Below, piece by piece: positions 717 through 51,277 of a stretch of 60,592 nucleotides of DNA (its first letter is position 1; every line of letters begins with the position of its first letter). The DNA is from an uncultured Candidatus Saccharibacteria bacterium (GTDB lineage Bacteria > Patescibacteriota > Saccharimonadia > Saccharimonadales > Saccharimonadaceae): assembly GCA_947303945.1 (NCBI GenBank), contig CAMYZS010000006.1:1-60592 (forward strand). Reading direction: 5' to 3'. The translations under genes were made by a program, and so were the position numbers. The notes beneath the pieces are model-generated. The model was not told the DNA's origin. It saw only the letters and a list, made by a program, of their open reading frames with translations, and ran no database searches.

Positions 717-869
717 GCTCAGCCTGATATTCGTTACATGTGTCACGACCTTCTGATTCACATGGCAAAGAATTATCCTGAGATATTTGGAGAATTGCTT
801 CGAGAACGCAATCGCGAATTCATTAATGATTTTGTAAATAAGACAAAGAAAGGTATGAATAATGATTAA
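186..869 (+). CDS. thyX: Flavin-dependent thymidylate synthase ThyX
   Basis: ThyX makes dTMP from dUMP using methylenetetrahydrofolate, FAD and NADPH, feeding phage DNA synthesis in the cytoplasm. The signature RHRx7S is at residues 78-88 (RHR, LASFSQE, S), and the 227-aa length is normal for the family. The start is GTG 186 with AGGAGA upstream; the same GTG and leader occur in the second copy at 60062. The end overlaps the next gene by 8 bases, suggesting translational coupling. A second copy, truncated by the window edge, differs mostly at silent positions. Confidence 0.95.
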   Translation: MKIIEYPTFEILAESPIGDYRRIAEGARTCYKSQSRGTDSDKRLISYCFENGHHSVLEHSSVTVRFICDRGVSHELVRHRLASFSQESTRYCNYSKDKFGNEITVVKPVRIHEGSMEYYIWEKSCEQDEKAYFDLLDLGVTPENARSVLPTCLKTEVVMTANLREWYHILKLRTARDAQPDIRYMCHDLLIHMAKNYPEIFGELLRERNREFINDFVNKTKKGMNND

Positions 870-1857
870 GATTCCAGCTCCTGTTATCCGAGTAGCCGGA
901 AAGTGCGGCAACTGGCTTGTTAAGAATGGTCCGAAGATTGCTGCGGTCAGTGGTGGAGTGATGGCCGTAGGAGGCGCTGTGATGGCCTGTGAGGCCACTC
1001 TGAAGGTTGATGAGGTACTTGAGCGCCATAAGCAGAAGATGGAGCGTATTGAGGCTGCTAAGGCCATTAGCGAGGAAAATGGCGATGGCGAGTTTACCGA
1101 GAAGGATATGAAGCGGGCTAAGTTTGAGACTTATCGCGACACCGCAATCGAACTCGTCAAGCTTTATGGTCCGGCAGTAGCTGTTGGATTTTCTGGCGTG
1201 GGTCTTATGCAGAGCGCTTTCTGGGTAACTGAGCGTCGTCAAGCAACTGCAGTTGCGGCTCTTACGACCATGGATCAGATGTACCAGAATCTTCTTGCAT
1301 CCGGCACGAATGATATTCCAGAGAGCGAGGAGATTGTCGTCGAGAATGACGATTCGGAGTCTGATGATGTTGTAGTTCTGAATACCAACCCTTCGGTCGA
1401 CCCGTTCTTCTTTATATTTGACGTAGATAAGAAGCATTTCGAAAATACGTTCACGAATAAGAAGGCGGAGTTTGTCACAAACGAGCGATTCCTTCTCTCG
1501 GCTATTGAAAATTACAACTATATGCTCAGTGGTCACACAATTGACCACGTTTGGGTGAATGATATTCTCAAGGCTTGGGGTATGGAGGAGACCGCCATTG
1601 GCCAGTTCTATGGCTGGAACGAAGCTACTGGGGACCAGATTGAGTATGATATTATTCCGTTCGTAAAGGAATGGAACGACGAGGACGGAAAGCAGTTCCC
1701 GCTTCTCGTTGAAATTGATCGCGATGAGTTTGACGATCTCGAGGCGCAGGATATTCAGGAGGGCTATTGCATTGGCATCCGTCTGAAGAGTTCTAGCGAT
1801 GGATACGGCCGGGTGACGATGCCTCGCAACATCTACAATGAGGTGTATGGTGATTAA
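862..1857 (+). CDS. DUF6353-like phage membrane protein
   Basis: This 331-aa protein has a hydrophobic stretch near residues 25-45, a second around 100-125, and a charged C-terminal domain rich in D, E, W and G (roughly 190-331). The layout resembles DUF6353 phage proteins, and the protein at 56972-57769 looks like a paralogue with the same plan. DUF6353 has no established function. An AGAAAGG ribosome site precedes ATG 862, and the gene overlaps thyX. An envelope location is inferred from the hydrophobic segments. Family assignment is by eye. Confidence 0.7.
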   Translation: MIKIPAPVIRVAGKCGNWLVKNGPKIAAVSGGVMAVGGAVMACEATLKVDEVLERHKQKMERIEAAKAISEENGDGEFTEKDMKRAKFETYRDTAIELVKLYGPAVAVGFSGVGLMQSAFWVTERRQATAVAALTTMDQMYQNLLASGTNDIPESEEIVVENDDSESDDVVVLNTNPSVDPFFFIFDVDKKHFENTFTNKKAEFVTNERFLLSAIENYNYMLSGHTIDHVWVNDILKAWGMEETAIGQFYGWNEATGDQIEYDIIPFVKEWNDEDGKQFPLLVEIDRDEFDDLEAQDIQEGYCIGIRLKSSSDGYGRVTMPRNIYNEVYGD

Positions 1858-1981
1858 TTACCTTAAGCGTTGGATTGGAGAGCTGCTGATTGATATCGGC
1901 AAGCACCTAGTCCAATCGTCTCGTATTAGTTACGTGCGTTATGCGGCTAGAAATGGTTCCGTAAATCGTTACAATTGGTAG
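1847..1981 (+). CDS. Small 44-aa protein
   Basis: The ORF opens at ATG 1847, inside the last codons of the DUF6353-like gene and behind GAGGTG, and stops at 1979-1981. The peptide is basic and aromatic (MVINYLKRW at the start, NRYNW at the end) and may form an amphipathic helix. The overlap and ribosome site support translation. A terminator follows 30 bases later, so it would be the last gene of the thyX operon. No family recognised. Confidence 0.5.
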   Translation: MVINYLKRWIGELLIDIGKHLVQSSRISYVRYAARNGSVNRYNW

Positions 1982-2011
1982 ACTTTAGGTCTACTTGATA
2001 TTCTAGACATC

Positions 2012-2050
2012 GGACAGGGGGTTGTGATTACACGCCCTCTGTCCTTTTGT
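2012..2050 (+). terminator. Intrinsic terminator after the thyX operon
   Basis: GGACAG pairs with CTGTCC across 2012-2044, with further G-C pairs inside, and a TTTTGTCTT tract follows. It closes the unit running from the left edge through 1981. Confidence 0.75.
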
Positions 2051-2067
2051 CTTGATTGGAGGTGAAA

Positions 2068-2622
2068 ATGGACGAGTTTGATGAGTATTTTATATGGCTA
2101 ATGGATTTAGTCAATGCCAACGTCGATGTTTATAGCGAATTGTTATATTTTCTTCATGACACAGACTTCGTATGGTGTTTGGATAGGGACGACGGACGTG
2201 CGAGCGACGGATTAAAACTTCGCGATGAATATTCAGAGGCCATGGCTGGTATGGGATTTGATGCCTCTTGGGTCGTTCTGATGGACAAACCGTGTAGTGT
2301 TCTTGAAATGTTAATAGGATTATCTAGACGCATGGACGATATGCTTATAGAAGATTATATGGCTCCTCGAGTTCCTATATGGTTCTGGAAAATGATTAAG
2401 AATCTCGGACTCGCAAAGTACACAAACGGCCTTCTTATGAATGCTGACGATGACGACTATTATAATATTCAAGAGATTCTTAATCGATGGATGAATAGAG
2501 ATTTTGATCCTGACGGAACTGGGTCCATATTTCCTCTAGAAAATCCCTACACAGATCAGAGAGAACGTACAATTATATACCAGCTTAATGCGTATGTTCT
2601 TGAGAATTATGTTGAGGAGTGA
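2068..2622 (+). CDS. Acidic hypothetical phage protein
   Basis: This 184-aa, strongly acidic, tryptophan-rich protein has no recognised domain. ATG 2068 is chosen because GGAGGTG lies just upstream; a longer reading from TTG 2056 would place the ribosome site inside the coding region. It is the first gene after a terminator and overlaps the ribosome site of the DUF3310 gene, heading the replication region. Confidence 0.75.
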   Translation: MDEFDEYFIWLMDLVNANVDVYSELLYFLHDTDFVWCLDRDDGRASDGLKLRDEYSEAMAGMGFDASWVVLMDKPCSVLEMLIGLSRRMDDMLIEDYMAPRVPIWFWKMIKNLGLAKYTNGLLMNADDDDYYNIQEILNRWMNRDFDPDGTGSIFPLENPYTDQRERTIIYQLNAYVLENYVEE

Positions 2623-2624
2623 GT

Positions 2625-2840
2625 ATGAATGAAGATGCTGTGAATCATCCTTCACATTACACTCAAGGAGGAATTGAGTGTATCGAAGCAATAAAAGCCA
2701 GCATGTCTCAGGAAGAATTTCTTGGATATTTGAAAGGCAATGCTATCAAGTATGTATGGCGTTATCGCATGAAGGGTAGAGCTAAGGAGGACCTGCAGAA
2801 GGCTCGGTGGTATTTGAATCGACTTCTCGAGGAATTGTAG
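2625..2840 (+). CDS. DUF3310 family protein
   Basis: The 71-aa protein carries the DUF3310 signature: NHPSHYTQGGIECIEAI, then GNAIKYVWRYRMKG and a KARWYLNRLLEEL helix. T7 gp1.7, a nucleotide kinase, contains this domain, so a role in phage nucleotide metabolism is plausible but unproven here. ATG 2625 sits 6 bases after GAGGAG; GTG 2619 would overlap that site. It directly precedes the AT-rich region and the replication polyprotein. Confidence 0.85.
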   Translation: MNEDAVNHPSHYTQGGIECIEAIKASMSQEEFLGYLKGNAIKYVWRYRMKGRAKEDLQKARWYLNRLLEEL

Positions 2841-3068
2841 ACTTATACCATTTTACCATTTTTGAGAAAACGATTACCACTTTTTCGGAAGAGCACAAGA
2901 GGTATTTACCTGCGGTTTTATACCAAATAACCATTTTACCATTTTTTATTTAAATTTAAAAATATTAAAAATAATTAATATATATAGGGTAATAGAAACC
3001 CCCTAAAAAAGAGGTTTTTTCGAAAAAAGTGGTAAAAATGGATATTTTAGCGAGAGAAAGGAGGGTTT
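2841..3068 (+). other. AT-rich repeat region, possible replication origin
   Basis: This gene-free stretch carries a repeated TACCATTTT unit: a doubled copy near 2846-2863, another doubled copy near 2929-2948, and an inverted pair in which 2874-2887 (TTACCACTTTTTCG) matches the complement of 3021-3035 apart from one extra A. Between them lies almost pure A/T (2941-2985). AAACC/GGTTT pairing with a T-run at 2996-3020 could be a terminator. Iterons plus AT-rich DNA beside the helicase-primase-polymerase gene suggest an origin; this is inference. Confidence 0.45.
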
Positions 3069-6000
3069 ATGGACTTCTTTCGAGTCAACTGGCGTTCGAC
3101 AAAAAGAGGCACCATCGAGGTTTATCCGAGCTTCTTGATATCCGAGAGTAAAGACTTCATGGTTCGAGGTCGAGACTTCTATGCGATATTTGATGAATCT
3201 AGTGGTCTGTGGAGTACAAACGAGTTTGATGTTGTTCGACTTGTCGATAAAGAGCTGTATGATTATGCGGAAGAACTTAGGAATACGACAGAAGACCGAG
3301 TTGCGGTTTTGAGTCTTAGTGATTACAGTTCAAAGTCTTGGTCTGATTACAAAGGAATGATATCTCGATATCCAGACCACTACAAGCCACTGGATGGTAA
3401 GCTGATATTTGCCGACGCCGAGACTAAGCGAGAAGACTATGCCAGTAAGAAGCTTCCTTACTCGTTGAGCGATAGTCCATGCGACTCGTGGGAAGAATTG
3501 ATATCTACACTATACGAGCCATCGGAGCGTCGTAAGATTGAATGGGCCATCGGAGCCGTTGTCGCTGGAGAAGCAAAAGATATTCAGAAGTTCCTAGTGT
3601 TCTATGGCGATGCTGGTACAGGCAAGTCAACTGTCTTGAACATCATACAAAAGCTGTTTGATGGATATTATGCAATCTTCGACGCCAAGGCGTTGGCTAC
3701 TGCTAGCAATCAGTTTAGCACAGAAGCGTTCAAGAACAATCCGTTGATTGCAATCCAGCACGACGGCGACCTTAGTAGAATTGACGATAATAGTCGACTC
3801 AACAGTATTGTCTCTCATGAGGAGATGACGATTAACGAGAAGCATAAGTCTTTATATTCTATTAAGATGAACGCATTTCTGTTTATGGCCACTAATAAGC
3901 CTGTTAAGATTACAGATGCTAAGTCGGGACTCATTCGTCGATTGATAGATGTCAATCCTAGCGGCAAGAAGATTCCTTCAAGTAGGTATCAAAAGCTAAT
4001 GCATGATATTTCGTTTGAACTTGGGTCTATAGCCGAACATTGCCGTAATGTTTATGAGACTCTTGGAAAGCATTACTACGATTCGTATAGATCTTCTGAG
4101 ATGCAATATAAGACGGATGTGTTCTTTAACTTTGTTGATAGCAATTACTTTGAATTTGCTAAGGCTGATTATGTTAGTCTTAAGCAAGCCTACGCAATGT
4201 ATAAAGAATATTGTGAAGAAACTTCTTTAAATTTTGTTATGCCTATGTATCAGTTTAGAGAAGAGTTGAAGAACTACTTTTCGTCTTTTACAAAGGATAA
4301 AATGATCGATGGAAAGCATCTTAGAAGTATCTATGAAGGTTTTCTTGTAGACAAACTTGAGTATAATTCTGGAGAGACGTTTGAAGAAATGGCCCCGAAC
4401 GAGTCCTGGCTTGAACTGAGCAGCTCGTCTTCATTGTTTGATATTCTCGCAAAGGACTATCCAGCACAGTATGCGAGTGAGATTGAGACTCCGTTAACGA
4501 AGTGGATTAACGTCACAACAACTCTTGCGGATATTGACACGAGTAAGTTGCATTATGTTAAGGTTCCCCCAGAGCATATAGTCATTGATTTTGATCTGAA
4601 AGGCAAAGACGGTTCCAAGTCTGCTGAGAAAAATATGAAGGCTGCAAATAAGTGGCCAAAGACTTATGCCGAGTTTAGTAAGGGCGGAGCCGGTATTCAC
4701 TTACATTATATTTATGATGGCGATGTCAGTGAGATTAGTCGAGTGTATTCTGAAGGAATAGAAATCAAAGTGTTTAACGGGAATAGTTCGTTGCGTAGAC
4801 GCCTTAGTTTGTGCAATGATATTCCTATTGCACACATTAGTGGGGGGTTGCCAAAGAAGGAGAGAAAGGTGATTAGTCAAAATACGATTAAGAGCGAGAA
4901 GGCGCTCAGAGATTTGATTGTTAAGAATCTCCGAAAAGAAGTCTGGCCTAACACAAAACCTTCGATTGATTTCATTTATAAGATTCTTGAAGATGCATAT
5001 GCTAGCGGGATGGAGTATGACGTTAGTGATATGCATACTCCAATTCTTGCATTTGCTGCTGATAGTACGCATCAGGCTAGATATTGTATGGACTGTGTTG
5101 CAAAGATGCGGTTCATGTCTAAGGAGAAGGAAGAGGTTGAAAAGGCAAATGCAGCAAAGGACATGATTGTCTTTTTTGATATTGAGGTGTTTCCTAATCT
5201 TTTCTTGGTTAATTATAAGGTTGCTGGAGAGGGTAAGCCTGTAATTAGGATGATTAACCCTGATGCTAATGCAATTGAGGAGCTGTTTCAGTATAAGCTG
5301 GTTGGTTTCAACAATCGTCGTTATGACAACCATATCATCTATGCGTGCTATCTTGGATATTCCGTAGAGCAATTGTATGGACTCTCCCAGCGAATCATTA
5401 ATGGAGACCGAGACGCGTTCTTTGGAGAGGCGTATAAGCTTAGCTACACTGATGTTTATGACTTCTCCAGTAAGAAACAGAGCCTTAAGAAGTTTGAGAT
5501 TGAGCTTGGCATTCATCATCAGGAACTTGGTCTTCCTTGGGATCAGCCGGTTGACCCAAAGCGTTGGACAGAAGTTGCTGAGTATTGTGATAATGATGTT
5601 ATTGCGACAGAAGCAGTGTTTAAAGCTAGGCATGCCGATTTTGTCGCTAGGGAGATTCTTGCGGACTTGAGCGGTCTGACTGTGAATGATACCACCAATC
5701 AACATACAACTCGTATTATATTTGGAAACGATCCAAATCCTCAGAAAAAGTTTGTCTATAAAGATTTGTCCGAGATGTTCCCTGGATACAAATTTGAGAA
5801 CGGCAAGAGTTTTTATAGAGGCGAGGACCCAGGAGAAGGTGGCTATGTCTATTCAGAACCCGGTATGTATGGCAATGTTGCTCTTCTTGATATTGCTTCT
5901 ATGCATCCTACTTCTATTGAAAATCTTAATCTATTCGGTCCTTATACTAAAAATTTCAGCGATATCAAGAAAGCTCGAATCTGTGTCAAGCATCATGATT

Positions 6001-9790: not shown

Positions 9791-9810
9791 TTTTACACGT
9801 CACTTAATGG
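9791..9810 (+). promoter_or_regulatory. Repeated phage element TTTTACAC..TTAATGG, copy 1
   Basis: This is the only copy in the left half of the genome. It precedes the nuclease-nuclease-RNA polymerase-like operon (9851-13665) and is followed immediately by a terminator-like hairpin, so it may be attenuated. Confidence 0.7.
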
Positions 9811-9841
9811 AGAGGGAATGTATGCCCTCTCTTTTTCTTTT
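9811..9841 (+). terminator. Terminator-like hairpin directly after the element (possible attenuator)
   Basis: AGAGGG pairs with CCCTCT around an 8-base loop (9811-9830), followed by CTTTTTCTTTT. A transcript started at the element would meet it within about 30 bases. It may terminate, be read through under regulation, or stabilise the 5' end. The ATG at 9818 lies inside the loop and is not taken as a start. Confidence 0.65.
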
Positions 9842-9850
9842 GAGGTGTTT

Positions 9851-10141
9851 ATGAAAGAAAATAAGTTTCAGGCTCAATTGATAAAGGACGTGAAGTCTTT
9901 ACTTCCAGGTTGTTATGTTCTCAAGAATGATCCTAACTACATTCAAGGGTTTCCAGACTTATTGATATTGTATAACAATAAGTGGGCGGCTTTAGAATGT
10001 AAACGAAGCGAGACTGCTTCTCATAGACCAAACCAAGAATATTATGTTATAAGTCTGAATGCTATGTCTTATGCTTCGTTTGTTTATCCTGAGAATAGAG
10101 AGGAGGTACTTCATGAACTTCAACGAGCATTGGAATCTTGA
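9851..10141 (+). CDS. VRR-NUC/resolvase-like PD-(D/E)xK nuclease
   Basis: The 96-aa protein has the minimal nuclease core: GFPDLLIL (D36), then ALECKRS (E49-x-K51) and a following Q62, as in VRR-NUC and Holliday-junction resolvase-like phage enzymes. It probably cleaves branched or otherwise structured DNA during replication or packaging. ATG 9851 follows GAGGTG. It is the first gene after the promoter-like element at 9791 and overlaps the next nuclease by 29 bases. Confidence 0.8.
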   Translation: MKENKFQAQLIKDVKSLLPGCYVLKNDPNYIQGFPDLLILYNNKWAALECKRSETASHRPNQEYYVISLNAMSYASFVYPENREEVLHELQRALES

Positions 10142-10667
10142 AGGCAAACACGCGTTCCTTAGCGCTTCCAAGTATCATTGGATTAATTACGATGAAGACC
10201 GATTGATATCTGCTTATCGTAATTGGAAGGCTAAGGAACGTGGTACACGTCTTCATGCTTTTGCTTGTGAGGCCATTCAGTTGGGCATAAAGTTGTCTAA
10301 TAGTAAGCGTACTTTAAATCGTTATGTGAATGACGCTATCGGTTTTGGTATGACTCCTGAATTGATACTGTACTATTCGGACAATTGTTTTGGAACAGCC
10401 GATGCAATTTCTTTTGATGGGCAACTTCTTAGGATACATGATTTGAAGACTGGAACGACGGCGGCTTCATTTCATCAGTTGGAAATCTATACTGCGTTGT
10501 TTTGTTTGGAGTATGGCTTCGATCCTCACGATATTGATATTGTTCTGAGGATCTATCAGTCTGACGAAATCCTTGAGGATAGCCCGGACCCGGATGCTAT
10601 CGTGGATATTATGAACACAATTGTCGACTTTTCTAGAATTGTCGACGGTCTTCGGAAAGAAGTATAG
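10113..10667 (+). CDS. RecB/Cas4-like PD-(D/E)xK exonuclease
   Basis: The 184-aa protein shows the RecB-family nuclease order: GTRLH (H48), GTAD (D97), HDLKTG (D110, K112) and Q122-x3-Y126. Such phage enzymes act in recombination or DNA-end processing. No iron-sulfur cysteine set is seen, so it is not a typical Cas4. ATG 10113 follows GAGGAGGT, which rules out the longer in-frame start at 10059. It stops 2 bases before the RNA polymerase-like gene. Confidence 0.8.
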   Translation: MNFNEHWNLEGKHAFLSASKYHWINYDEDRLISAYRNWKAKERGTRLHAFACEAIQLGIKLSNSKRTLNRYVNDAIGFGMTPELILYYSDNCFGTADAISFDGQLLRIHDLKTGTTAASFHQLEIYTALFCLEYGFDPHDIDIVLRIYQSDEILEDSPDPDAIVDIMNTIVDFSRIVDGLRKEV

Positions 10668-10669
10668 CA

Positions 10670-13411
10670 ATGAAGGTTCTTGCGGAAGATTGGCTTGCTC
10701 ATTATGGAACTCCTCAGGAGTTCGATGGAGATCCACATGGTTCAGGTAGATATCGTCAAGGTTCTGGTGATAATCCTTATCAACATGCTCGAGACTTTAA
10801 AGACCGAGTTGCTGCGATAAAAAGGGAGAATCCTGGAATAAAAGAAAAAGAGCTCGTTAAGTATCTTATTGATGACGGTTATGGCGATGAAGTTGAAGAT
10901 GAGAATGGAAACAAAAAGAGAGAGCTTTCTATTCGTACATATCGTCAAATGATTACTAAAGCGAAAGCTGAAATCGATGCCGAAGATTATCGTAGGGCTA
11001 AGGTACTTCATGATGAACGTCAATGGTCCTATGAGGCAATTGGTAAAGAGCTGGGTCGTTCAGAATCCGGTGTCCGACAACTTTTGCAAAGAGACGCTGA
11101 ATTGAAAGCTAAGCGAATCAACACGACAGCCGATATGCTTAGAGAATCTTTGAATAGTCGCGGTGGATTTATTGATGTCGGTGCATATTCCGAAATGTAC
11201 ATAGGTGTCGGTCGAAGCAATCTTGATGCTGCCGTTAAGCAGTTGCATGATGAAGGATACGCGGTTATTAACGGTTCGGTTCGTCAGGTATTTGGACAGG
11301 GAAATACTACAGTTAAGGTCATCTGCCCTCCAGGAACGACAAAAGGCGAAGTGTTCAATCATTTTGACCAGATTCGTTTGCCGGTTGATATTCATGTCGA
11401 TGAGGACGGAAATCCTAAAAAACTTAGACCTGTCGAAAGTGTTTCGTCAGAACGAGTTCAAATTAAGTATGCGGAGGATGGCGGTGTTGCTAAAGACGGC
11501 GTTATCGAGCTTCGTCGCGGTGTTTCTGATATTGACCTCGGTAATTCGAATTATGCTCAGGTTCGAATTGCCGTTGATGGAACGCACTACCTTAAAGGTA
11601 TGGCCGTTTATGCTGACGACTTACCTGATGGAGTTGATATTCGTTTTAACACTAATAAGCATGTGGGCACTCCATTAAAAGACGTCTTGAAGCCAATGCA
11701 AGATCCGTCAAATGAGACGAATCCATTTGGTGCATCCATCGTTAGTCAGCGAGGAGTTCTCAACATCGTTAATGAAGAAGGCGATTGGAGCAAATGGTCA
11801 AAAACTTTGTCGTCTCAATTCTTGTCTAAACAGTTTGAACAGACGGCGAAGCGTCAGCTTAAGTTGACTGCGGATATTTCTAGAGCAGAGTTTGATGACA
11901 TCAAGTCGTTGACGAATCCGACACTTAAAAGATATTTGCTTCAGCAATTTGCAAATAGTTGCGACGCCGATGCCGTTCATCTTAAAGCCGTTCGTCTTCC
12001 AGGACAGACGCAAAAAGTTCTTTTACCTCTTCCTGATATTGCTGAAAACAAATGCTATTGTCCTAGTCTTCCCAATGGTACAGAAGTGGCCCTGGTCAGA
12101 TATCCGCATGGTGGCGTTTTTGAGATTCCAAAACTTATTGTTGATAACAACAATCAAGAAGGGAAAAAGATATTTGGAAATGCTCAAGATGCCATAGGCA
12201 TTTCGCCAAAAGCTGCTGGTATTCTTTCTGGAGCAGACTTTGATGGCGACACAGCAATGGTTCTTCCGATAACAAAGCCTGATGGTACTCCAATTATTAA
12301 AATTAAGACCGCAAAACCATTAGAAGGGCTTAAAGATTTTGAGCCAAAAGAAATGTATCGAGGAGACCATCTTCCTGAAAAAGATTTGATGAAGAAGACT
12401 CGTGTTCAGACAGAAATGGGAATGATATCTAATCTGATTACGGACATGACGATACAGGGCGCAACTGATGAGGAATTGGCTCGAGCTGTTCGGCATTCTA
12501 TGGTTGTAATCGATGCTCATAAGCATAAGCTGGATTATAAAGCATCTGCGAGAGATAATCGTATTGCAGAATTGAAGAAGAAGTATCAGCCAAACGGTGG
12601 GGCGAGTACAGTTATATCTTCTGCAAAGAGTCGCACTTATTATTATGACCGACGAGAAAAAGCTGTGTCTAAACTTACCCCAGAAGAGCGAGAGCGTTGG
12701 GAACGCGGCGAAATAATATGGGAGCCTACCGGTAAAATGGTTTATAACAAGACTACCGGACAATACGACAAGCCTATGCAACATCGTAGTACAAAGATGT
12801 ATGAAACTTCCGATGCGTATGATCTTTCTTCAGGTATGGCGATTGAGAAATATTATGCAGATTATGCAAATTCTATGAAAGCCCTTGCCAATGAAGCTCG
12901 TGCCGAACTTCGCAGGACTCCTAAAATGGAATATAGTCCGACTGCTAAGAAAACGTATTCTGAAGAAGTTGCTTCTCTTAACAGTAAGTTGAAGACTGCT
13001 CAGATGAATGCCCCACTTGAGCGAAAAGCCCAGACTCTTGCAAACTCTACTCTCAGGGTTGAATTTGCAGACCATCCGGAATACGATGACGGTCAAAAGA
13101 AAAAGGCGAAAAGTAGGCATTTGGAAGCGGCCAGGAATGCTGTCGGTGCTGGTAAAGAAAAGATCGACATAGAAGACCGTGAGTGGGAGGCTATACAGGC
13201 TGGCGCTATATCGGACTCTAAGGCTCTAGAAATTTTCTCAAATTCAGATTCCAAATTAATCAGACAGCGTGCCATGCCTAGAGCCAACTCAATCAGTCAG
13301 GCCAAGCTTTCTAAAGCTAGAGCTCTTCTTAAGAATGATGCATGGACTTGGGCTGAAGTGGCCGAGATGCTCGGCGTCTCCGTATCAGGTCTTCAAAATG
13401 CTCTTGGTTGA
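10670..13411 (+). CDS. Candidate single-chain two-barrel (DFDGD) RNA polymerase
   Basis: The 913-aa protein contains GADFDGDTAMV with D523, D525 and D527, the metal-binding loop of the RNA polymerase beta' subunit and of single-chain two-barrel polymerases such as SPbeta YonO. About 45 residues upstream, VRYPHGGVFEIP (R477, P479, H480) matches the beta' NRxPxxH segment in order and spacing. A conserved-looking lysine-rich block (GDWSKWSKTLSSQ, then LSKQ, from 371) could belong to the first barrel. HTH segments lie near residues 117-142 and 885-910. The N-terminus (HYGTP, then GSGRY, NPYQH) recalls tags on neighbouring structural proteins. Activity is inferred from motifs. Confidence 0.7.
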   Translation: MKVLAEDWLAHYGTPQEFDGDPHGSGRYRQGSGDNPYQHARDFKDRVAAIKRENPGIKEKELVKYLIDDGYGDEVEDENGNKKRELSIRTYRQMITKAKAEIDAEDYRRAKVLHDERQWSYEAIGKELGRSESGVRQLLQRDAELKAKRINTTADMLRESLNSRGGFIDVGAYSEMYIGVGRSNLDAAVKQLHDEGYAVINGSVRQVFGQGNTTVKVICPPGTTKGEVFNHFDQIRLPVDIHVDEDGNPKKLRPVESVSSERVQIKYAEDGGVAKDGVIELRRGVSDIDLGNSNYAQVRIAVDGTHYLKGMAVYADDLPDGVDIRFNTNKHVGTPLKDVLKPMQDPSNETNPFGASIVSQRGVLNIVNEEGDWSKWSKTLSSQFLSKQFEQTAKRQLKLTADISRAEFDDIKSLTNPTLKRYLLQQFANSCDADAVHLKAVRLPGQTQKVLLPLPDIAENKCYCPSLPNGTEVALVRYPHGGVFEIPKLIVDNNNQEGKKIFGNAQDAIGISPKAAGILSGADFDGDTAMVLPITKPDGTPIIKIKTAKPLEGLKDFEPKEMYRGDHLPEKDLMKKTRVQTEMGMISNLITDMTIQGATDEELARAVRHSMVVIDAHKHKLDYKASARDNRIAELKKKYQPNGGASTVISSAKSRTYYYDRREKAVSKLTPEERERWERGEIIWEPTGKMVYNKTTGQYDKPMQHRSTKMYETSDAYDLSSGMAIEKYYADYANSMKALANEARAELRRTPKMEYSPTAKKTYSEEVASLNSKLKTAQMNAPLERKAQTLANSTLRVEFADHPEYDDGQKKKAKSRHLEAARNAVGAGKEKIDIEDREWEAIQAGAISDSKALEIFSNSDSKLIRQRAMPRANSISQAKLSKARALLKNDAWTWAEVAEMLGVSVSGLQNALG

Positions 13412-13428: not shown

Positions 13429-13665
13429 ATGAAACAGTATCTCCTCACAACCAATGACAATCCGTATCATCCGGCAGACCAATATGAAGAGTGGCGTCGA
13501 TATGACATGGAGCATGGTTATTATACAGAGCAGCGATTGGCTAGGGTTGCTTCGACTTCATATGACCTAACTGATTTGGAGAATCAGCGAAACATAAACG
13601 CTGCTGTGAATGACTTCATTCGTCTCGATAGACTTGGTCTGTACAAGCGAGTAGTCGTTGAATAA
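13429..13665 (+). CDS. Small conserved phage protein
   Basis: The 78-aa protein MKQYLLTTNDNPYHP... has an aromatic N-terminus and a helical C-terminus. It starts at ATG 13429 behind GGAGGTGAG, directly after the RNA polymerase-like gene, and is the last gene before the large non-coding region. Similar short proteins are familiar beside such genes in gut phages, but no function is known to me. Confidence 0.75.
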   Translation: MKQYLLTTNDNPYHPADQYEEWRRYDMEHGYYTEQRLARVASTSYDLTDLENQRNINAAVNDFIRLDRLGLYKRVVVE

Positions 13666-13673
13666 TTGTGGAA

Positions 13674-13697
13674 ATCTTGCAAAGAGAGTTTTGTAAG
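13674..13697 (+). repeat. CTTGCAAAG-N4-CTTTGTC hairpin repeat, copy 1
   Basis: ATCTTGCAAAGAGAGTTTTG: the CAAAG stem pairs with TTTTG through one G-U around AGAG. Confidence 0.6.
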
Positions 13698-13926
13698 GGT
13701 ATCTAAACATCAGCATAGAACTCGCGCTATTTAAGAGTGTATATACGCCTCTCTAATAAGGCTCGTATATAGGCTTTATTAGCGCGAGTTCTATGCTATT
13801 TAAACGACTGATACTATGCTGGGTATGTATAGAGTCCTATACACAATACTATGTATATGCGTGTTGGTATCTACATAGTGGGCAGTCTATGTACCTATAT
13901 GTTTATTAAAAGGATTATACCCAGTA

Positions 13927-13950
13927 ATCTTGCAAAGAACTCTTTGTCAT
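13927..13950 (+). repeat. CTTGCAAAG-N4-CTTTGTC hairpin repeat, copy 2
   Basis: CAAAG-AACT-CTTTG is fully paired, and can extend to CAAAGA/TCTTTG. Same strand as the other copies. Confidence 0.6.
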
Positions 13951-14166
13951 ATGTTAATCAGCCCCATCTATGGTAAGCACAGAGCATACATAGGCGATTA
14001 ATTGGTAGTATGTATGTTATTAATAGCATACAGTATGTGCTTGTCCATTCATTAAGGCCCTTAATCGGCTCTAATGATCTCAATTGAATGAAAATACCCA
14101 GGCCCCTAGCATTCGTTTATCGAAATTTAGTCATGGTTTACAAAATTTCGTGTAAGGAGGACTAAA

Positions 14167-14190
14167 ATCTTGCAAAGAAAACTTTGTCAG
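14167..14190 (+). repeat. CTTGCAAAG-N4-CTTTGTC hairpin repeat, copy 3
   Basis: CAAAG-AAAA-CTTTG, fully paired, followed by TCAG. Confidence 0.6.
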
Positions 14191-14239
14191 GACCTGAAAG
14201 AGACCGAAAATTTTGTAAAAATCGATGGGAGGGGGTACA

Positions 14240-14263
14240 TTCTTGCAAAGAAAACGTTGTCGT
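14240..14263 (+). repeat. CTTGCAAAG-N4-CTTTGTC hairpin repeat, copy 4
   Basis: CAAAG-AAAA-CGTTG carries one mismatch in the stem; the flanking TCTTG and GTC are kept. Confidence 0.55.
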
Positions 14264-14484: not shown

Positions 14485-14802
14485 GTGCCTAGAAAAAGAC
14501 CGCCGGCTCAGAGTCCAGAGGCTCGCGAGAACCAATTGATTAACGCAGCTGTCGATTTGGCCGAACAACAGCTTCGCGATGGTACTGCATCTCCTTCTGT
14601 TATTACTCATTTTCTAAAATTAGCGTCTACTAAGCAACAACTTGAGATTGAAAAGCTAAAAAGCGAAACTGAATTTCTTCGAGCAAAAGCTGACGCAGTT
14701 CAATCTAATCAGAGAAGCGAAGAACTTTATGCCGAAGCCATTGCTGCGATGAAACGATACAGCGGAGTGGAGGAAGATTATTATGCGGAAGAGGTCTTAT
14801 AG
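14485..14802 (+). CDS. Terminase small subunit (putative)
   Basis: The 105-aa, mostly helical, charged protein (MPRKRPPAQSPEAREN..., LKLASTKQQLEIEKLKSE coiled coil) fits the size and make-up of small terminase subunits, which recognise phage DNA for packaging. It starts at GTG 14485 behind AAAGGAGGT, first after the large non-coding region, and overlaps the HNH gene. The call rests on position and composition. Confidence 0.65.
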   Translation: MPRKRPPAQSPEARENQLINAAVDLAEQQLRDGTASPSVITHFLKLASTKQQLEIEKLKSETEFLRAKADAVQSNQRSEELYAEAIAAMKRYSGVEEDYYAEEVL

Positions 14803-15197: not shown

Positions 15198-15554
15198 ATG
15201 GATAGTATTTTAAATAGTGTTAAAGCTTATCTTGGAATTATGGAAGAAGACGAATCTTTCGACTCCGATCTTATAATCGCAATTAATGCTGTAATGTTTG
15301 TTCTTAATCAGTTTGGAGTAGGACCATCAAGTCCTTTTATTGTTGAGGATTCTACTCAGACGTGGGTGGACCTTCTAGGAGAAGATCCAATAGGTTTGAT
15401 TAGACAATATGTAGGGATGAGGGTTAAACTTATTTTTGATCCGCCAACAAGCACATATGTTTCTCAGGCCCTTAATGAACAAATTGATGAATTGGAATGG
15501 CGAATCATCGCCGAAGTTGACAAGAAAGCTTATGAGGCGATGAATAATGAGTGA
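15198..15554 (+). CDS. Head-tail connector (HK97 gp6-like)
   Basis: The 118-aa protein starts MDSILNSVKAYLGI and continues EDESFDSDLIIAINAVMFVL, matching the helix pattern of the HK97 gp6/phi-adaptor family that forms a ring under the portal. GGAGGT precedes ATG 15198. Its place between the HNH and large terminase genes is unusual for lambda-like order but seen in related gut phages. Confidence 0.65.
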   Translation: MDSILNSVKAYLGIMEEDESFDSDLIIAINAVMFVLNQFGVGPSSPFIVEDSTQTWVDLLGEDPIGLIRQYVGMRVKLIFDPPTSTYVSQALNEQIDELEWRIIAEVDKKAYEAMNNE

Positions 15555-16623
15555 ATTATATCATTGGGGAATAACTGGCATGAAATGGGGCTTTCGACGC
15601 TTTCAAAACGAAGATGGCTCTTTAACGTCAGCAGGACGTGAGCGTTACGGTGTCGGTGCGGAACGAGCTAGTAAGAAACATTCAAAAGCAGGGATGGTAG
15701 GGCTCGAAGCTAAATACCAAGCCAAGCGAGCTGTGAAATCCGTCAAAAAGACCGCGTCTGAACTCGACGAAGCTCGTATTAATAATGCTCGTCGTCGTGT
15801 TTCGGCCTTAGTTGATAAGCGTGATCGCATTCAAGAAAAGGCTTTTCTTAAGGAGCAAGAAAAAGCTCTTAAGAAAGATATGAAGAAAGTAAAGAAGGAC
15901 GCTGAGAAAGAAGCTAAGGGCAAATTTTCAATCAAAAAGATAAAAGATTTAAGTGATGAAGAAATTTCAGCTCGAATAAATCGTCTTAAGCGAGAGGGAG
16001 AACTTCTAAACCTCGAAGCTTCTCGAAACATGTCCCCCGGCATGAAAGCGTTTGCAGATGCCATTTCAGGAGCAGCCACAGAAGCAACAAAAGGTCTTGC
16101 TAAGGATGCTGTTACTGCTCTTGGTAGCAAGTTTTTAAAGGATATCGGATTAGATTTAAATGACAAATCCATTAAGGAAGCAAGCGACGCTGCGAGTTTG
16201 ATTCGAAAACAGCTCGATCAAATGAAAGCACAAGACGAGTATAACGATTATGTTCTTACTCGTAAAGCTACGACTGATGCTGAGAGGCTTCGCGGCGCAA
16301 GGCTTTCGGAGAAGGCTAAGCGATATCAAAATATGCAGAACATCGCCAATGCTCGAAAAGCCATCGAAGGTGATCCCGACGATGAACTTGCCAGGGAAGC
16401 AAAGCGTTGGCAAAACGCCCAGACTATAGCGAACGCTAAGAGGTCGCTGGAGCCTAAAGAATCTGCTGAGGATGCTGGAAAACGACAAACTCAGCGAATA
16501 AATGAACGTAAAGAGATGGAGCGTCGTGTTAAGGCGTATCGAAAGAACGACGTTCCTTTTGAGGAAATAGCTCGAAGGCTCGGGATAACAATAGACCAGG
16601 CGAAAGACCTTAATTACGAGTAA
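15547..16623 (+). CDS. Structural-region protein with YHWGITGMKWG tag and C-terminal HTH
   Basis: The 358-aa protein opens with LYHWGITGMKWGFRR and SLTSAGRERYG, a motif shared with the protein at 18381. The middle is highly charged and helical (about 50-300), with a repeated unit AKRYQNMQNIANARKAI / AKRWQNAQTIANAKRSL. The end looks like an HTH (FEEIARRLGITIDQA). It overlaps the connector gene by 8 bases. A role in head assembly or delivery with the DNA is inference; function unknown. Confidence 0.65.
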   Translation: MSELYHWGITGMKWGFRRFQNEDGSLTSAGRERYGVGAERASKKHSKAGMVGLEAKYQAKRAVKSVKKTASELDEARINNARRRVSALVDKRDRIQEKAFLKEQEKALKKDMKKVKKDAEKEAKGKFSIKKIKDLSDEEISARINRLKREGELLNLEASRNMSPGMKAFADAISGAATEATKGLAKDAVTALGSKFLKDIGLDLNDKSIKEASDAASLIRKQLDQMKAQDEYNDYVLTRKATTDAERLRGARLSEKAKRYQNMQNIANARKAIEGDPDDELAREAKRWQNAQTIANAKRSLEPKESAEDAGKRQTQRINERKEMERRVKAYRKNDVPFEEIARRLGITIDQAKDLNYE

Positions 16624-16638: not shown

Positions 16639-18381
16639 ATGCCCCTTTCAAACACAGCAACGCCAAAATACTATGGAATGTTTCGCGATGCAGTGTTACG
16701 AGGGGACATTCCGGTATGTGAAGAAATCTCTATGGAGATGAATCGCATTGACGCACTTATTGAGAATCCAGGAGTCTATTACGACGAACTCGCAATGGAC
16801 GGCTATGTTAGATTTTGCGAAGATGAGTGCACGCTTACTGACGGTTCGGATTTGAATCTTCTCGACACATTTAAGCTTTGGGCGGAACAGGTTTTCTGCT
16901 GGTGTTACTTTGTTGAGCGATCGGTTTATGAGCCGAATGACGACGGACATGGCGGCCATTGGGTTAAGAAGATTCGTAAGAAGCGATTGACAAACAAGCA
17001 ATATTTGATTGTTGCCCGAGGTGCCGCTAAGTCTATGTATGGTTCAACGATTCAGAACTTTTTCTTGAATGTTGACACCGACACTACACATCAGATTACT
17101 ACTGCACCAACAATGAAGCAGGCGGAAGAGGTTCTATCTCCCATTCGAACCGCAATCGCAAGATCTCGTGGTCCTTTGTTCAAATTCCTAACCGAAGGAT
17201 CAATTCAGAATACGACGGGAAGTAAGGCAAATCGTCAAAAACTTGCGTCAACTAAGAAGGGAATAGAAAACTTTTTGACTGGTTCCCTTCTTGAGGCGCG
17301 TCCTATGTCGATTGATAAGCTTCAGGGTCTTCGTCCTAAGATTTCAACCGTAGACGAGTGGCTTTCTGGCGATGTTCGAGAAGACGTAATTGGCGCAATC
17401 GAGCAGGGTGCGTCTAAGATGGATGACTACTTGATTGTCGCTATGTCTTCCGAAGGAACTGTGCGAAACGGCTCTGGAGACTCCATCAAGATGGAGCTCA
17501 TGAAAATTCTCAAGGGTGAATACGTTAATCCACATGTGTCTATTTGGTATTATCGAATTGATAAAATAGAGGAAGTTGCTAATCCAGACATGTGGGTAAA
17601 AGCTCAGCCTAATATTGGTCTGACCGTTAGTTATGAGACATACCAGCTTGATGTTGATAGAGCTGAGAAGGCTCCTGCTGCGCGAAACGATATTTTGGCA
17701 AAGCGTTTTGGTATTCCAATGGAGGGTTATACCTACTTTTTCCGTTACGAGGAGACTCTTCCGCATCCAAGACAAGATTACTGGGGTCTTCCATGTGCTT
17801 TGGGTGCTGACCTATCGCAAGGAGATGACTTCTGTGCTTTTACTTTCATGTTTCCTCTTCCTGGTGGGTTTGGAGTTAAGACTCGTTGTTATATTACTTC
17901 TCGTACGCTTGATCGTCTTCCTGGTGCAATGCGTCTCAAGTATGACGAGTTTCTTCAAGAAGGTTCCTTGGTGGTTTTGGATGGTACTATTCTTGATATG
18001 ATGGACGTATACGAAGACGTTGATCGCTACATCATTCAATCTGACTATGACGTTCGTTCGTTTGGATTCGATCCGTATAACGCAAAGCAGTTTGTCGACC
18101 GATGGGAATCTGAGAATGGTCCATATGGTATAACCAAAGTCATTCAGGGTGCCAAAACCGAGTCGGTTCCTCTGGGTGAGTTGAAGAAACTTGCTGAGGA
18201 TCGAGTTCTTATGTTTGATGAACAGCTTATGATGTTCTGTATGGGAAACGCGATTGTTATTGAGGACACGAATGGCAATCGAAAGCTTCTGAAAACCCGT
18301 TATGATCAAAAGATTGACGCTGTGTCTGCTTTGATGGATGCATATGTCAGTTGGTCTGTGAATAGAGAGTTGTTTGAATAA
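16639..18381 (+). CDS. Terminase large subunit
   Basis: The 580-aa packaging motor and nuclease has Walker A ARGAAKS (126-132), a Walker B-like segment ending VDEW (238-241) and an RNase H-like nuclease core: GADLSQGDD near 390, FDPYNAKQ near 476, and QKIDAVSALMDA near the end. These match HK97-type TerL proteins. AGGTAGGTG precedes ATG 16639, and the stop overlaps the next start by one base. Confidence 0.95.
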   Translation: MPLSNTATPKYYGMFRDAVLRGDIPVCEEISMEMNRIDALIENPGVYYDELAMDGYVRFCEDECTLTDGSDLNLLDTFKLWAEQVFCWCYFVERSVYEPNDDGHGGHWVKKIRKKRLTNKQYLIVARGAAKSMYGSTIQNFFLNVDTDTTHQITTAPTMKQAEEVLSPIRTAIARSRGPLFKFLTEGSIQNTTGSKANRQKLASTKKGIENFLTGSLLEARPMSIDKLQGLRPKISTVDEWLSGDVREDVIGAIEQGASKMDDYLIVAMSSEGTVRNGSGDSIKMELMKILKGEYVNPHVSIWYYRIDKIEEVANPDMWVKAQPNIGLTVSYETYQLDVDRAEKAPAARNDILAKRFGIPMEGYTYFFRYEETLPHPRQDYWGLPCALGADLSQGDDFCAFTFMFPLPGGFGVKTRCYITSRTLDRLPGAMRLKYDEFLQEGSLVVLDGTILDMMDVYEDVDRYIIQSDYDVRSFGFDPYNAKQFVDRWESENGPYGITKVIQGAKTESVPLGELKKLAEDRVLMFDEQLMMFCMGNAIVIEDTNGNRKLLKTRYDQKIDAVSALMDAYVSWSVNRELFE

Positions 18382-18968
18382 TGAGTGAATTGTATCACTG
18401 GGGTATTAAAGGAATGCGATGGGGTGTTAGAAACTATCAGAATCTCGATGGTTCCTTAACTACTGCCGGACGAATTAGGTATGGTGTTGAAAAACCAAAC
18501 GGCGGCGTGTTTGATAGTTCTAATAGTCTATCAAAGCGTGCGAAACGACTCAGTAAGTTTGGAACTGAGCTTGCTAAGGCAAAAACCTATCAGTATACAA
18601 ATGCCGGTCGCTATAAAGTTCGCAAAGCTAGGTCTGAAGTTGCTCGTATGATTAGAGGAAAAGAAGCAAATCGACAAATAGCCAAGGCTAATAGACGCCA
18701 TCAATTGGATTATAAAATCTCTAGAGCTCAGGCAAAAGGTTTTATCGATCATTTGGCTGGTAGTACATATCAGAGCGTATTTAATGCCAGTAATGCACGA
18801 TTTAAAAGCCGAATCTCTGTTGGACAAAGATACGTCGAGTTATCGAAACGTTACGTTCCTCGTGGAGCGATTAATAAAATTAAATGGGATAATATTGAAA
18901 ATACTCTTCCTGAGATACGCATTGGGCGCGAAAGCTTGGCTGGTCTTACGAGAGTTAGGCTTCGATAA
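18381..18968 (+). CDS. Second YHWGIKGMRWG-tagged protein
   Basis: The 195-aa basic protein begins MSELYHWGIKGMRWGVRN and SLTTAGRIRYG, nearly the same tag as 15547-16623, but the rest is unrelated: a basic, helical region without a known domain. It sits between large terminase and portal. Tagged proteins of this kind recur in head modules of gut phages; a minor capsid or scaffold-linked role is likely but unproven. Confidence 0.65.
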   Translation: MSELYHWGIKGMRWGVRNYQNLDGSLTTAGRIRYGVEKPNGGVFDSSNSLSKRAKRLSKFGTELAKAKTYQYTNAGRYKVRKARSEVARMIRGKEANRQIAKANRRHQLDYKISRAQAKGFIDHLAGSTYQSVFNASNARFKSRISVGQRYVELSKRYVPRGAINKIKWDNIENTLPEIRIGRESLAGLTRVRLR

Positions 18969-38036: not shown

Positions 38037-40085
38037 ATGCAAAAGCACGAAGCGGCTGCTTACATAGCGGGATTAACCCCCAGTGAAAATGCAAGTGAAA
38101 GCCAAACGACAAATGTTCACATAATTACCGCTACTGTTGAACAAGATTCCGACGAAGGCACTGCCCTTGTATCAGTCGAAGGTATGGTTTTTGGCGAAAG
38201 CGATGATCAATATTTCGAAGTGGATACAATAGGCGGACTGTTGGAAGGCGATACAACTAGTCTACTTCTAACTGGAGAACCTGGTCACGCCATGACTCCG
38301 TTAAGTCTTGGTGGAGTTGGTACAGTTGACCGAGTGGTTAAAAGGGTTTCGGAGATAGAAGCGGATTATGTGCAGGCCGGTTATCTCGAAGCTAACTACG
38401 CTCATATTCATGAAGGCGTAATTGATAACGCTCAGATTAATGATGCGAATATCGTTGATGGTTCTATTACAGGAACGAAGATTCGAGACGCCACCATAAC
38501 AGGTGCTCAGATAGCTTCGACAACTATTACCGGTTCTAACATTGCTAACGGAACCATCACTGCTACTCAAATACAAGACAGTAGCATCACAGGTTCTAAA
38601 ATTGATGCGTCGACTTTTACGAACGGTCAAATTAGTGGTTCTAAAATCGATGCGTCGACTTTTACAAATGGCCAAATTAGTGGTTCTAAAATCGATGCGT
38701 CGACTTTTACAAATGGCCAAATTAGCGGTACTAAAATCGACGGTTCTACGCTAACGAACATTCCTTCGGCAAGCATTGTTGATTTGTCTGCTAATTATGC
38801 TCGTATAGATGCGTCAAATATTACAGAGTTAACCGCTCGCGATGCGTGGATAAATAATCTTCTCGTACAAAGCGGGCTTCTTGCTCACGAGGGTACGATA
38901 TTTACGTTAGATGCTATTCAGGTTGATGCTGTAAATATTACTGCTGGTACCATTGATGTTGAGCGTCTAATAGTTAGCAACAATGGCGAAAAATACTTGG
39001 TTCATGTCGACGAGGTTACAGGGCAGCCAACTTACGAAAAGCTGGATGGCAATATAGTCCAACCCAGGACCATTGCTGCTGATAAAATTGTCGCCGGATC
39101 AATAACCACTCAAGAGATTACTACAGAAAACCTTGTTGGAACCGGTGGATGGATTAATTTACGTAATGGAACTTTTGCGTATGTTAACGCTACTACCGGT
39201 CAGGGTATTTCTTGGGACGGACAGCATCTTTCGATTTCAGGAAGCGTTACGATTTCTCCTGGTTCATCTCGGACACTTGCTGATATTGCAAATGCAGTTG
39301 ATTCAACTCTGATTTACGATCATACGTATGAGTTCAATCAAGCAAAAACGCAGGCTACGTTTACGGCACATCTTTTCCAAGGCGGCGTTGATATTGCTCC
39401 GACGTATGCCGAAGCCGATCCAAGTCCGTTTACATGGTATCGAAAGAGCGAAACTCCAGATGAGCAAGGTAACACTACGATATATTTGGGAAGCGGTTTG
39501 ACATGCGTCGTAAATATGTCGGACATGGGCTATGGATCTCATATTATAGGCAAGTTTACTACTCCAAACGAGTCTGAACTGCTTGACTCGAATGATAACA
39601 ATCTAACAACTTCTGAAGATGACAACCTTATTGCTAGGACGCCATCTGGTGACTCGGTTCGAGTGAGCGACCTGTCTGTTGCAACTGTTCTTTATTCAAC
39701 AGACAAACTTATGGTTGTGGGTCCAGAGGACGAGCACCTTGTTACCATTTCTACAATACAAGCGTACCTTGAAGCTAATCTAACTAAGCAGGTTCGATTT
39801 GGAACAACAGCTCAGTGGAACGCTCAGTCAACTTTGGAATCCGAGGCAAACACTCTTTATATTTACACAGATCGTGCAGTTGATTCTCTAGGAAATGCTA
39901 TAGCGGGTATCAAAGTCGGTGATGGTAATGCCTATCTTGTAGACTTGCCTTTTACCGACAACATACTGATGGATCATATAGCAGATACAACGAGACATAT
40001 TACCTCCGAGGAGAGGGAGTTCTGGAATAACAAGGTTCGTTGTTATGCTACCGGTCAAGAGACACTTGTATTTACAACTAGCTAA
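38037..40085 (+). CDS. Tail fibre/tip protein with TI-type repeats
   Basis: The 682-aa protein has an OB-like N-terminus, then many short repeats of the type DGSITGTKI, NGTITATQI and ASTFTNGQISGSKI (about 125-240), typical of beta-helical or triple-spiral shafts. Three exact-length 45-base repeats encode 15-residue units here. A C-terminal half follows with LIYDHTYEF... shared in style with the 889-aa fibre. It probably links hub and receptor-binding proteins. Confidence 0.7.
   Translation: MQKHEAAAYIAGLTPSENASESQTTNVHIITATVEQDSDEGTALVSVEGMVFGESDDQYFEVDTIGGLLEGDTTSLLLTGEPGHAMTPLSLGGVGTVDRVVKRVSEIEADYVQAGYLEANYAHIHEGVIDNAQINDANIVDGSITGTKIRDATITGAQIASTTITGSNIANGTITATQIQDSSITGSKIDASTFTNGQISGSKIDASTFTNGQISGSKIDASTFTNGQISGTKIDGSTLTNIPSASIVDLSANYARIDASNITELTARDAWINNLLVQSGLLAHEGTIFTLDAIQVDAVNITAGTIDVERLIVSNNGEKYLVHVDEVTGQPTYEKLDGNIVQPRTIAADKIVAGSITTQEITTENLVGTGGWINLRNGTFAYVNATTGQGISWDGQHLSISGSVTISPGSSRTLADIANAVDSTLIYDHTYEFNQAKTQATFTAHLFQGGVDIAPTYAEADPSPFTWYRKSETPDEQGNTTIYLGSGLTCVVNMSDMGYGSHIIGKFTTPNESELLDSNDNNLTTSEDDNLIARTPSGDSVRVSDLSVATVLYSTDKLMVVGPEDEHLVTISTIQAYLEANLTKQVRFGTTAQWNAQSTLESEANTLYIYTDRAVDSLGNAIAGIKVGDGNAYLVDLPFTDNILMDHIADTTRHITSEEREFWNNKVRCYATGQETLVFTTS
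38592..38746 (+). repeat. 45-bp tandem repeat in tail fibre gene
   Basis: Copies at 38592-38636, 38637-38681 and 38682-38726 are nearly identical, followed by a partial fourth. Each encodes GSKIDASTFTNGQIS, so copy number can change without breaking the frame. Confidence 0.9.
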
Positions 40086-47303: not shown

Positions 47304-47323
47304 TTTTACACCTCCTTTAATGG
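47304..47323 (+). promoter_or_regulatory. Repeated phage element, copy 2
   Basis: TTTTACAC-CTCC-TTTAATGG; GAAC/GTTC pairs just downstream (47324-47336). Precedes the gene at 47353. Confidence 0.7.
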
Positions 47324-47623: not shown

Positions 47624-47643
47624 TTTTACACTCCTTTTAATGA
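47624..47643 (+). promoter_or_regulatory. Repeated phage element, copy 3
   Basis: TTTTACAC-TCCT-TTTAATGA, directly after a terminator T-tract; drives the gene at 47665. Confidence 0.7.
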
Positions 47644-48702: not shown

Positions 48703-48722
48703 TTTTACACTCCTTTTAATGA
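48703..48722 (+). promoter_or_regulatory. Repeated phage element, copy 4
   Basis: TTTTACAC-TCCT-TTTAATGA, identical to copy 3; drives the gene at 48746. No clear terminator precedes it. Confidence 0.7.
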
Positions 48723-50365: not shown

Positions 50366-50385
50366 TTTTACACACCGTTTAATGA
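50366..50385 (+). promoter_or_regulatory. Repeated phage element, copy 5
   Basis: TTTTACAC-ACCG-TTTAATGA; begins one base after the preceding stop codon and precedes the 49-aa gene at 50420. Confidence 0.7.
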
Positions 50386-50972: not shown

Positions 50973-51277
50973 TGTCATATTTGGAATCCCTAGATACGGA
51001 TAATCTAGTCCTTGTCGCAAATCGAATTCAAGCGGAGTATAACAGGACTCGAAAGATGTTTTGTGATAAGGCAGGCTATTACAACCGTCAGGCTATTACG
51101 AACTTCTATTATAAAGAGGACGACCTTTCAGAGCTTATTATGAAGTGCAAAGAACTTAAAGGTCAGTACAAGGCGATTTCCGACATTATGTTTAGAAGGG
51201 GATACAGGCCGGATATTGACGGCTGGCGGGATTCCAATAACTTTTTGTTTAACGGAGATATTTTACACTCCGCTTAA
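50972..51277 (+). CDS. Hypothetical helical protein
   Basis: The 101-aa protein starts on the last base of the holin stop (AAGGAGG upstream) and has no known domain. Its last codons (DILHSA and stop) are encoded by the next repeated element, so that element evolved inside a coding end. Confidence 0.7.
   Translation: MSYLESLDTDNLVLVANRIQAEYNRTRKMFCDKAGYYNRQAITNFYYKEDDLSELIMKCKELKGQYKAISDIMFRRGYRPDIDGWRDSNNFLFNGDILHSA

Follow-up and report, generated by a model that had tools for sequence, protein, structure and literature searches.

Single-chain two-barrel RNA polymerases are present in many phages, and eukaryotic RNA-dependent RNA polymerases (RdRPs) lie near one phage group, according to the accessible part of a 2020 review (PMC7281927). 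The subject here is a gene for a protein of this kind at positions 10670-13411 of a 60,592-nucleotide stretch (contig CAMYZS010000006.1; the whole stretch is called the window), together with a short element repeated 16 times on the same strand. On the favoured reading, with a probability of about 0.8, the protein is a single-chain two-barrel RNA polymerase that copies DNA, and its promoter is the element. The enzyme family itself is already named; the link between enzyme and element is the new part. No report of the element or of the enzyme's function was found in the open-licence literature.

YonO of Bacillus phage SPbeta is a proven single-chain DNA-dependent RNA polymerase with an aspartate triad. 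It transcribes late genes; in the available portion of the paper its promoter sequence is left undetermined by the authors (PMC5467207). The window protein is likewise a single chain, and the YonO profile, PHROG 8308, matches 7 of 25 family members (best 2.7e-7; the window protein is not among them), but a direct profile comparison with YonO gives no significant match (hhalign, probability 2.5%). Thermus siphovirus P23-45 has two single-chain enzymes, non-virion gp64 and virion gp96, and two promoter motifs; pre-early, early and some middle genes are transcribed by these enzymes (PMC10770324, accessible text). Both are phage polymerases of the two-barrel kind, and each is presumed to work with a separate repeated motif. 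In contrast to them, the window family has terminal helix-turn-helix (HTH) domains, a different putative promoter and a far wider spread, and no sequence match to the window protein exceeds chance (8h2n, named tape measure protein, E 0.53, around the catalytic motif). The two-barrel single-chain polymerase gp66 of crAss-like phage phi14:2 (PDB 6vr4, titled virion-packaged) is much larger (2166 residues), with a Foldseek E of only 0.55 against the window protein. The same two-barrel core as in residues 254-752 of the window protein is found in QDE-1 and plant RDR2. These are eukaryotic silencing enzymes. To our knowledge, they have neither a sigma-like HTH nor a phage promoter. A shared 'HTH' gene among AM, BI, DJ and CC relatives was noted by the authors on cluster AU Arthrobacter phages (PMC5679793, accessible text). 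Repeats given for other phages in the available text of PMC7302621, PMC13313380 and PMC5513430 are not the window's element.

Polymerase gene, catalytic residues and predicted fold

Genes for terminase, portal, capsid protease and replication are present in the window. Features of the polymerase gene are as follows.

10670-13411, + strand: predicted single-chain two-barrel RNA polymerase gene, PHROG 4291 family; intact open reading frame, ATG start, 913 amino acids
10694-10789, + strand: conserved N-terminal tag, residues 9-40; family motif LxHYGTxRxSGRYPWGSGDNPYQ; mostly predicted disordered
10979-11092, + strand: sigma-region-4-like HTH, residues 104-141
11429-11779, + strand: first predicted double-psi barrel (beta-like), residues 254-370; invariant R299 and K309; weak when folded alone
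11990-12316, + strand: second predicted double-psi barrel (beta-prime-like), residues 441-549
12236-12250, + strand: catalytic DFDGD, residues 523-527
13322-13405, + strand: C-terminal HTH-like segment, residues 885-912; weak in the window protein alone

The original prediction, made from the letters of the window, described a single-chain polymerase with DFDGD at D523-D527 and an upstream RYPH. Both segments are present, RYPH at residues 477-480, N-terminal to DFDGD. Across 25 aligned sequences (the window protein and 24 homologues from viral contigs) R477, P479, H480 and D523-D527 are invariant; the Y of RYPH varies. DFDGD occurs in 78 of 80 polymerase loci, a count that is partly circular, the loci having been found with patterns including SGADFDGD.

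Two facing barrels had been proposed as a structural check, and a two-barrel core is supported by the AlphaFold model, built from the 25 sequences (predicted local distance difference test, pLDDT, 77.7; predicted TM-score, pTM, 0.60). QDE-1 and RDR2 take the top Foldseek ranks at 8.5e-8 (QDE-1), 2.4e-7 and 4.5e-5 (RDR2). By VIA-align, residues 254-752 superpose on the two-barrel core of RDR2 with Z 14.7 (367 residues, 4.1 Å) and on residues 681-1186 of QDE-1 with Z 13.4 (380 residues, 5.0 Å). Residues 441-549 match isolated double-psi barrels at Z about 11. Folded alone, the first barrel has a pLDDT of 87.3, and two-barrel polymerases rank first again, weakly: the best rows, E 0.017 and Z 5.3 at best, include RDR2 (best), QDE-1 and P23-45-type chains (8h2m, 8f5m, 8f72). 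In the model a single chain holds both barrels, beta-like then beta-prime-like as in QDE-1, with the DxDGD loop in a double-psi barrel.

The polymerase is not unique to the window, a correction of emphasis: it belongs to a named family, usually labelled RNA-dependent RNA polymerase or HTH protein. The PHROG 4291 profile ('RNA-dependent RNA polymerase') matches residues 4-912 of 913 with 1017 bits and is matched by all 25 alignment members. The family is found in 250 phage records, 249 of them covering at least 80% of the protein length; the records listed are annotated mostly as HTH protein, hypothetical protein or RNA-dependent RNA polymerase. A genome scan gave 137 relatives. The best 80 of the 137 are mostly from Lachnospiraceae, Oscillospiraceae and other Firmicutes records, and some of these 80 are clearly chromosomal, e.g. 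in Hungatella hathewayi. Of the profile searches proposed as a check, that against phage families thus placed the protein, and that against solved structures gave only HTH, designed-repeat and chance rows. A single-protein sequence search of solved structures gave no match up to E 10. The Pfam RdRP family (PF05183) scores 15.1 bits, E 0.0093, under the curated cut-off of 23.8.

HTH segments had been claimed at both ends. The N-terminal one stands: residues 104-141 match Pfam HTH_23 (1.4e-7) and Sigma70_r4_2 (2.3e-7), and two sigma-like NCBIfam rows for this stretch (4.7e-4 and 0.0061) fall under their own cut-offs. The C-terminal one is only suggestive in the window protein alone (Rv2175c_wHTH 0.097, HTH_3 0.19).

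Repeated element in the window and in related phages

The element is TTTTACAC-N5-TTAATGG. The predicted count of 16 promoter-like copies is exact, and all lie on the + strand. Fifteen are perfect TTTACACN5TTAATG and one has a single change. No perfect copy occurs on the - strand, where one stretch (821-838) has one mismatch to the element; no exact match arose in 200 dinucleotide-shuffled versions of the window.

9792-9809, + strand: element copy of the polymerase operon
47305-47322, + strand: element copy
47625-47642, + strand: element copy
48704-48721, + strand: element copy
50367-50384, + strand: element copy
51262-51279, + strand: element copy
51670-51687, + strand: element copy
51998-52015, + strand: element copy abutting a tRNA gene
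52016-52079, + strand: tRNA with reduced anticodon arm, starting at the base after the element (RF00005, 36.7 bits)
52086-52103, + strand: element copy
52485-52502, + strand: element copy
53084-53101, + strand: element copy
54561-54578, + strand: element copy
55085-55102, + strand: element copy
56007-56024, + strand: element copy with one change, C to T
56392-56409, + strand: element copy
58096-58113, + strand: element copy

Most copies lie at or just 3' of the stop of the upstream gene, often behind a terminator hairpin, with a plausible start codon about 22-41 nt downstream. Small early genes follow most copies, a tRNA follows one and the polymerase operon follows that at 9792; the gene downstream of 56007 is less certain. 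None lies within the structural-gene block. No conserved -35 box was found among the window copies. All 16 have T as the second base of the -10-like hexamer; host sigma needs A there. Because its anticodon arm is reduced, a decoding role of the window tRNA is doubtful. A tRNA starts at the base right after TTAATG in three cases, the one at 52016 and two in one relative; tRNA genes directly behind element copies in relatives lie at 15967-16031 and 16070-16143 (L039) and at 14637-14709 (L058). In Rhodococcus phage ReqiPoco6 the tRNA starts eight or nine bases after TATAAT.

A gapped-word (k-mer) scan without a prior motif placed variants of one element at or near the top in most of 14 enzyme-carrying phages, the exceptions being FP_oengus and MT835495. 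A gapless frame, TCGCR-NNN-WTTACAY-NNN-CTATAATGRG, is common, in lineage variants, to 14 phages (two more phages having been added). These are Gordonia, Streptomyces, Arthrobacter, Curtobacterium, Rhodococcus and Lactococcus phages and uncultured contigs, and so span phages of Actinobacteria and Firmicutes; the row for PherryCruz holds one instance only. This consensus is partly a product of construction, because the frames were cut with patterns from the k-mer scan. Leave-one-lineage-out matrices, held-out loci and Lactococcus phage P078 are the tests least dependent on it.

With leave-one-lineage-out matrices, 118 sites above 12 bits were found on the coding strand of the 14 phages vs 4 on the other strand. 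In 80 held-out loci, as much as 3 kb upstream of the polymerase gene was scanned with the matrix from the 14 phages. Sites above 12 bits were present on the coding strand of 77/80 and on the other strand of 0/80, with median maxima of 20.3 and 5.5 bits. A site above 15 bits lies 880-1300 nt upstream of the polymerase in 71 of the 80; some loci are near-duplicates, and these 71 operon leaders reduce to 62. Controls downstream of the polymerase (25 of the 80 loci used) gave 2/25 on the coding strand and 0/25 on the other; controls within the gene (again 25 of 80) gave 0/25. In unrelated phages 5 of 134 segment-strands exceeded 12 bits (24 of 30 single-match loci used). The host-matched control, consisting of sk1 only, has one weak site of 12.6 bits. 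In P078, not in the training set, all 10 sites lie on the coding (+) strand. The pairing of enzyme and element, at first a conjecture, now has held-out comparative support.

A sample of viral contigs was also collected by the element pattern alone. Among the matches listed, 31 of 39 such contigs of at least 30 kb encode the enzyme vs 2 of 30 controls, which are single-match contigs of at least 30 kb. The automated tally of 32/39 includes G030, an HTH-only match of 26 bits, excluded here. The eight contigs without the enzyme among these matches are all under 39 kb, and all 29 listed records of at least 39 kb have a polymerase match, a cut set after the result was seen; one of them, G052, has only a 45-residue end at the contig edge. 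The pattern TTTTACACN5TTAATGG gave 88 stretches over viral contigs, most of them single, and single matches are about at chance level by a rough estimate; the 30 controls come from these. Among six multi-match contigs, five (at most 28 kb) gave no polymerase match, and in the sixth (G094, 33,220 bases) the sole match, of 32 bits, covers the HTH region and contains two stops. Co-occurrence alone was rejected as proof, since a primase-polymerase travels with the enzyme.

The assembly of the window has a second phage-like contig (G000 contig C10), with a polymerase at 754-3363 (- strand), 46% identical. It carries 14 sites on the polymerase strand, in a different variant, TTACGAAAAAAACACNCCTTATAATGAAG. 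Among Lactococcus lactis phages, 1706 and CHPC971 have the variant CTATAGTAG and P078 has CTATAATGA. Because two phages of one assembly differ, as do two L. lactis groups, the variant follows the phage and not the host, on the assumption that both assembly contigs share a cell.

Polymerase operon, N-terminal tag and other features

The copy at 9792 precedes the following features.

9810-9841, + strand: terminator-like hairpin, GAGAGGG/CCCTCTC with T tract, directly abutting the element
9851-10141, + strand: VRR-Nuc-like endonuclease, first operon gene, named from annotated relatives; the listed start, 9818, lies inside the hairpin, and 9851 is in frame with a ribosome site
10059-10667, + strand: Cas4/RecB-like exonuclease, same operon, named from annotated relatives
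13429-13665, + strand: small conserved protein phrog_4303, beside the polymerase across the lineage

The small protein adjoins the polymerase in eight aligned phages and could be its partner or cofactor. The hairpin at the operon promoter is kept across Firmicutes, Lactococcus and other lineages (leaders L269-L348; L350/L351). A plain energy test (below -9 kcal) was weak, with 49/62 leaders vs 20/62 shuffled. In an anchored test, designed after it, 48 of 61 non-redundant leaders have a stem that begins at the presumed RNA start, against a shuffled mean of 8.9 and a maximum of 14. Other sites pass in 25 of 148 cases (shuffled mean 7.0, maximum 11); by our reading about 13 of these are polymerase-operon copies and some are tRNA acceptor stems. 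Damping of autocatalysis, production of a short RNA and insulation from host read-through are options for the hairpin's role.

The N-terminal tag motif is present in 76 of 80 polymerase loci. It resembles the N-terminus, LxHHGxKGMKWG, of small proteins whose genes lie close to terminase and portal; hhalign against KGMKWG-type N-termini gives 79%, over 13 columns only, and a relationship is suggested. In the window, the genes at 15547-16623 and 18381-18968, near terminase and portal, share a 113-nt repeat, and their proteins begin with HWGIxGMxWG, to which the polymerase tag is possibly related. GMKWG was absent from the papers in the open-licence search. In phage 1706 the polymerase homologue, orf75, bears the name 'structural protein', which is a deposited label only. 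The conserved tag hints at virion packaging of the polymerase, as a lead.

Four AATCTTGCAAAGAAAACTTTGTC-like repeats occupy 13670-14261, which is non-coding and separates the polymerase end of the genome from the terminase region; they possibly represent a cos or packaging site. A direct repeat, 88% identical (1-300 and 59877-60176), covers the start of the thymidylate synthase gene and is either a partial duplication or an assembly overlap. Tandem repeats of 45 bp are present at 38592-38758 in a large late-gene reading frame, probably a tail gene. One of 45 window proteins scanned has a weak match to a Thoeris anti-defense Tad2-like domain (1.4e-4).

Proposed function, alternatives and significance

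The two-barrel fold, the catalytic residues, the conservation, strand and position of the element, its co-occurrence with the enzyme and the link of variant to phage are computed; from them we infer catalysis, a DNA template, direct recognition and the start site. The sigma-4-like N-terminal HTH, the C-terminal HTH or both would bind the upstream TCGC and TTACA boxes. Next, the enzyme would open the AT-rich box, TATAATG or, in the clade of the window, YTTAATG, with RNA starting at the run of purines that immediately follows. In this way the polymerase would transcribe a tRNA and about 14 early genes, each with a promoter to itself, and, through the copy at 9792, the operon that encodes it.

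Several observations count against this reading of enzyme and element. Site counts are low in Faecalibacterium phage FP_oengus (1 strong site, 0 on the other strand) and in MT835495 (2, with 1 on the other strand), and 3 of the 80 held-out loci have no site above 12 bits. The first barrel alone reaches only Z 5.3. The putative promoter of the polymerase operon lies flush against a terminator-like hairpin, an unexpected arrangement if it is to be productive. In most lineages TATAAT looks like a host -10 box. Inheritance of the enzyme is tied to that of an entire replication module: the primase-polymerase is found at 80% coverage or more in 252 records, with genus counts nearly equal to those of the polymerase. 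As replication genes travel with the polymerase, another phage protein could read the element. The element would then be a host RNA polymerase promoter redirected by a protein binding TCGC/TTACA, such as phrog_4303 or an HTH protein, and the DFDGD protein would have another role. The TATAAT box, equal to the host -10 consensus in most lineages, and the presence of phrog_4303 beside the polymerase and in 229 phage records speak for this. It is nevertheless unlikely: no -35 box is conserved at the usual distance, the window clade has T at the second -10 position in 16/16 copies, and the spacing of the element is identical across phages of two phyla. In Lactococcus, phrog_4303 is found in 2 records vs 13 for the polymerase, although a short diverged protein can escape detection. 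A scan of 45 window proteins detected no member of a sigma-factor family; HTH_23 is matched weakly by one of them (4.8e-4).

Action on RNA rather than on promoter DNA, as the database label RNA-dependent RNA polymerase implies, agrees with the nearest solved folds, the RNA-interference polymerases QDE-1 and RDR2, and with the weak Pfam RdRP match (0.0093, below cut-off). It is very improbable for a protein equipped with HTH domains and accompanied across phages by a DNA promoter element; the characterised phage two-barrel enzymes use DNA, as stated in the accessible parts of PMC5467207 (YonO) and PMC10770324 (P23-45). That the element serves as a repressor operator, or as a translation signal associated with starts, is hardly to be expected either. 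Repeated intergenic motifs of unclear role do lie near start codons in other actinophage clusters (PMC7302621, available text), but the present element is asymmetric and always in gene direction. It also precedes tRNA genes, which are not translated, and therefore is not a translation signal. Asymmetry, constant orientation into a gene and abutment to tRNA genes mark the element, as judged from its sequence, as a promoter.

A further proposal, tentative and doubtful, extends the pairing of polymerase and promoter. The polymerase of these very common Firmicutes and Actinobacteria tailed phages may be packaged in the virion through its N-terminal tag, be injected, and fire the promoter set at once, independently of host polymerase and phylum. 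Its own operon may be throttled by the promoter-to-terminator hairpin, which would damp autocatalysis and yield a short hairpin RNA.

How single-chain two-barrel phage polymerases find their promoters is largely open, that of YonO being undetermined in the accessible text of PMC5467207. The present pairing would provide a promoter family, with variants by lineage, that is tied to a single enzyme family and occurs in phages whose hosts are in culture: Lactococcus, Streptomyces, Gordonia, Arthrobacter and Rhodococcus. A gene label would be put right in hundreds of phage records as well as in many prophages. Enzyme and element together, about 900 residues and about 27 base pairs, would make a compact orthogonal transcription system.

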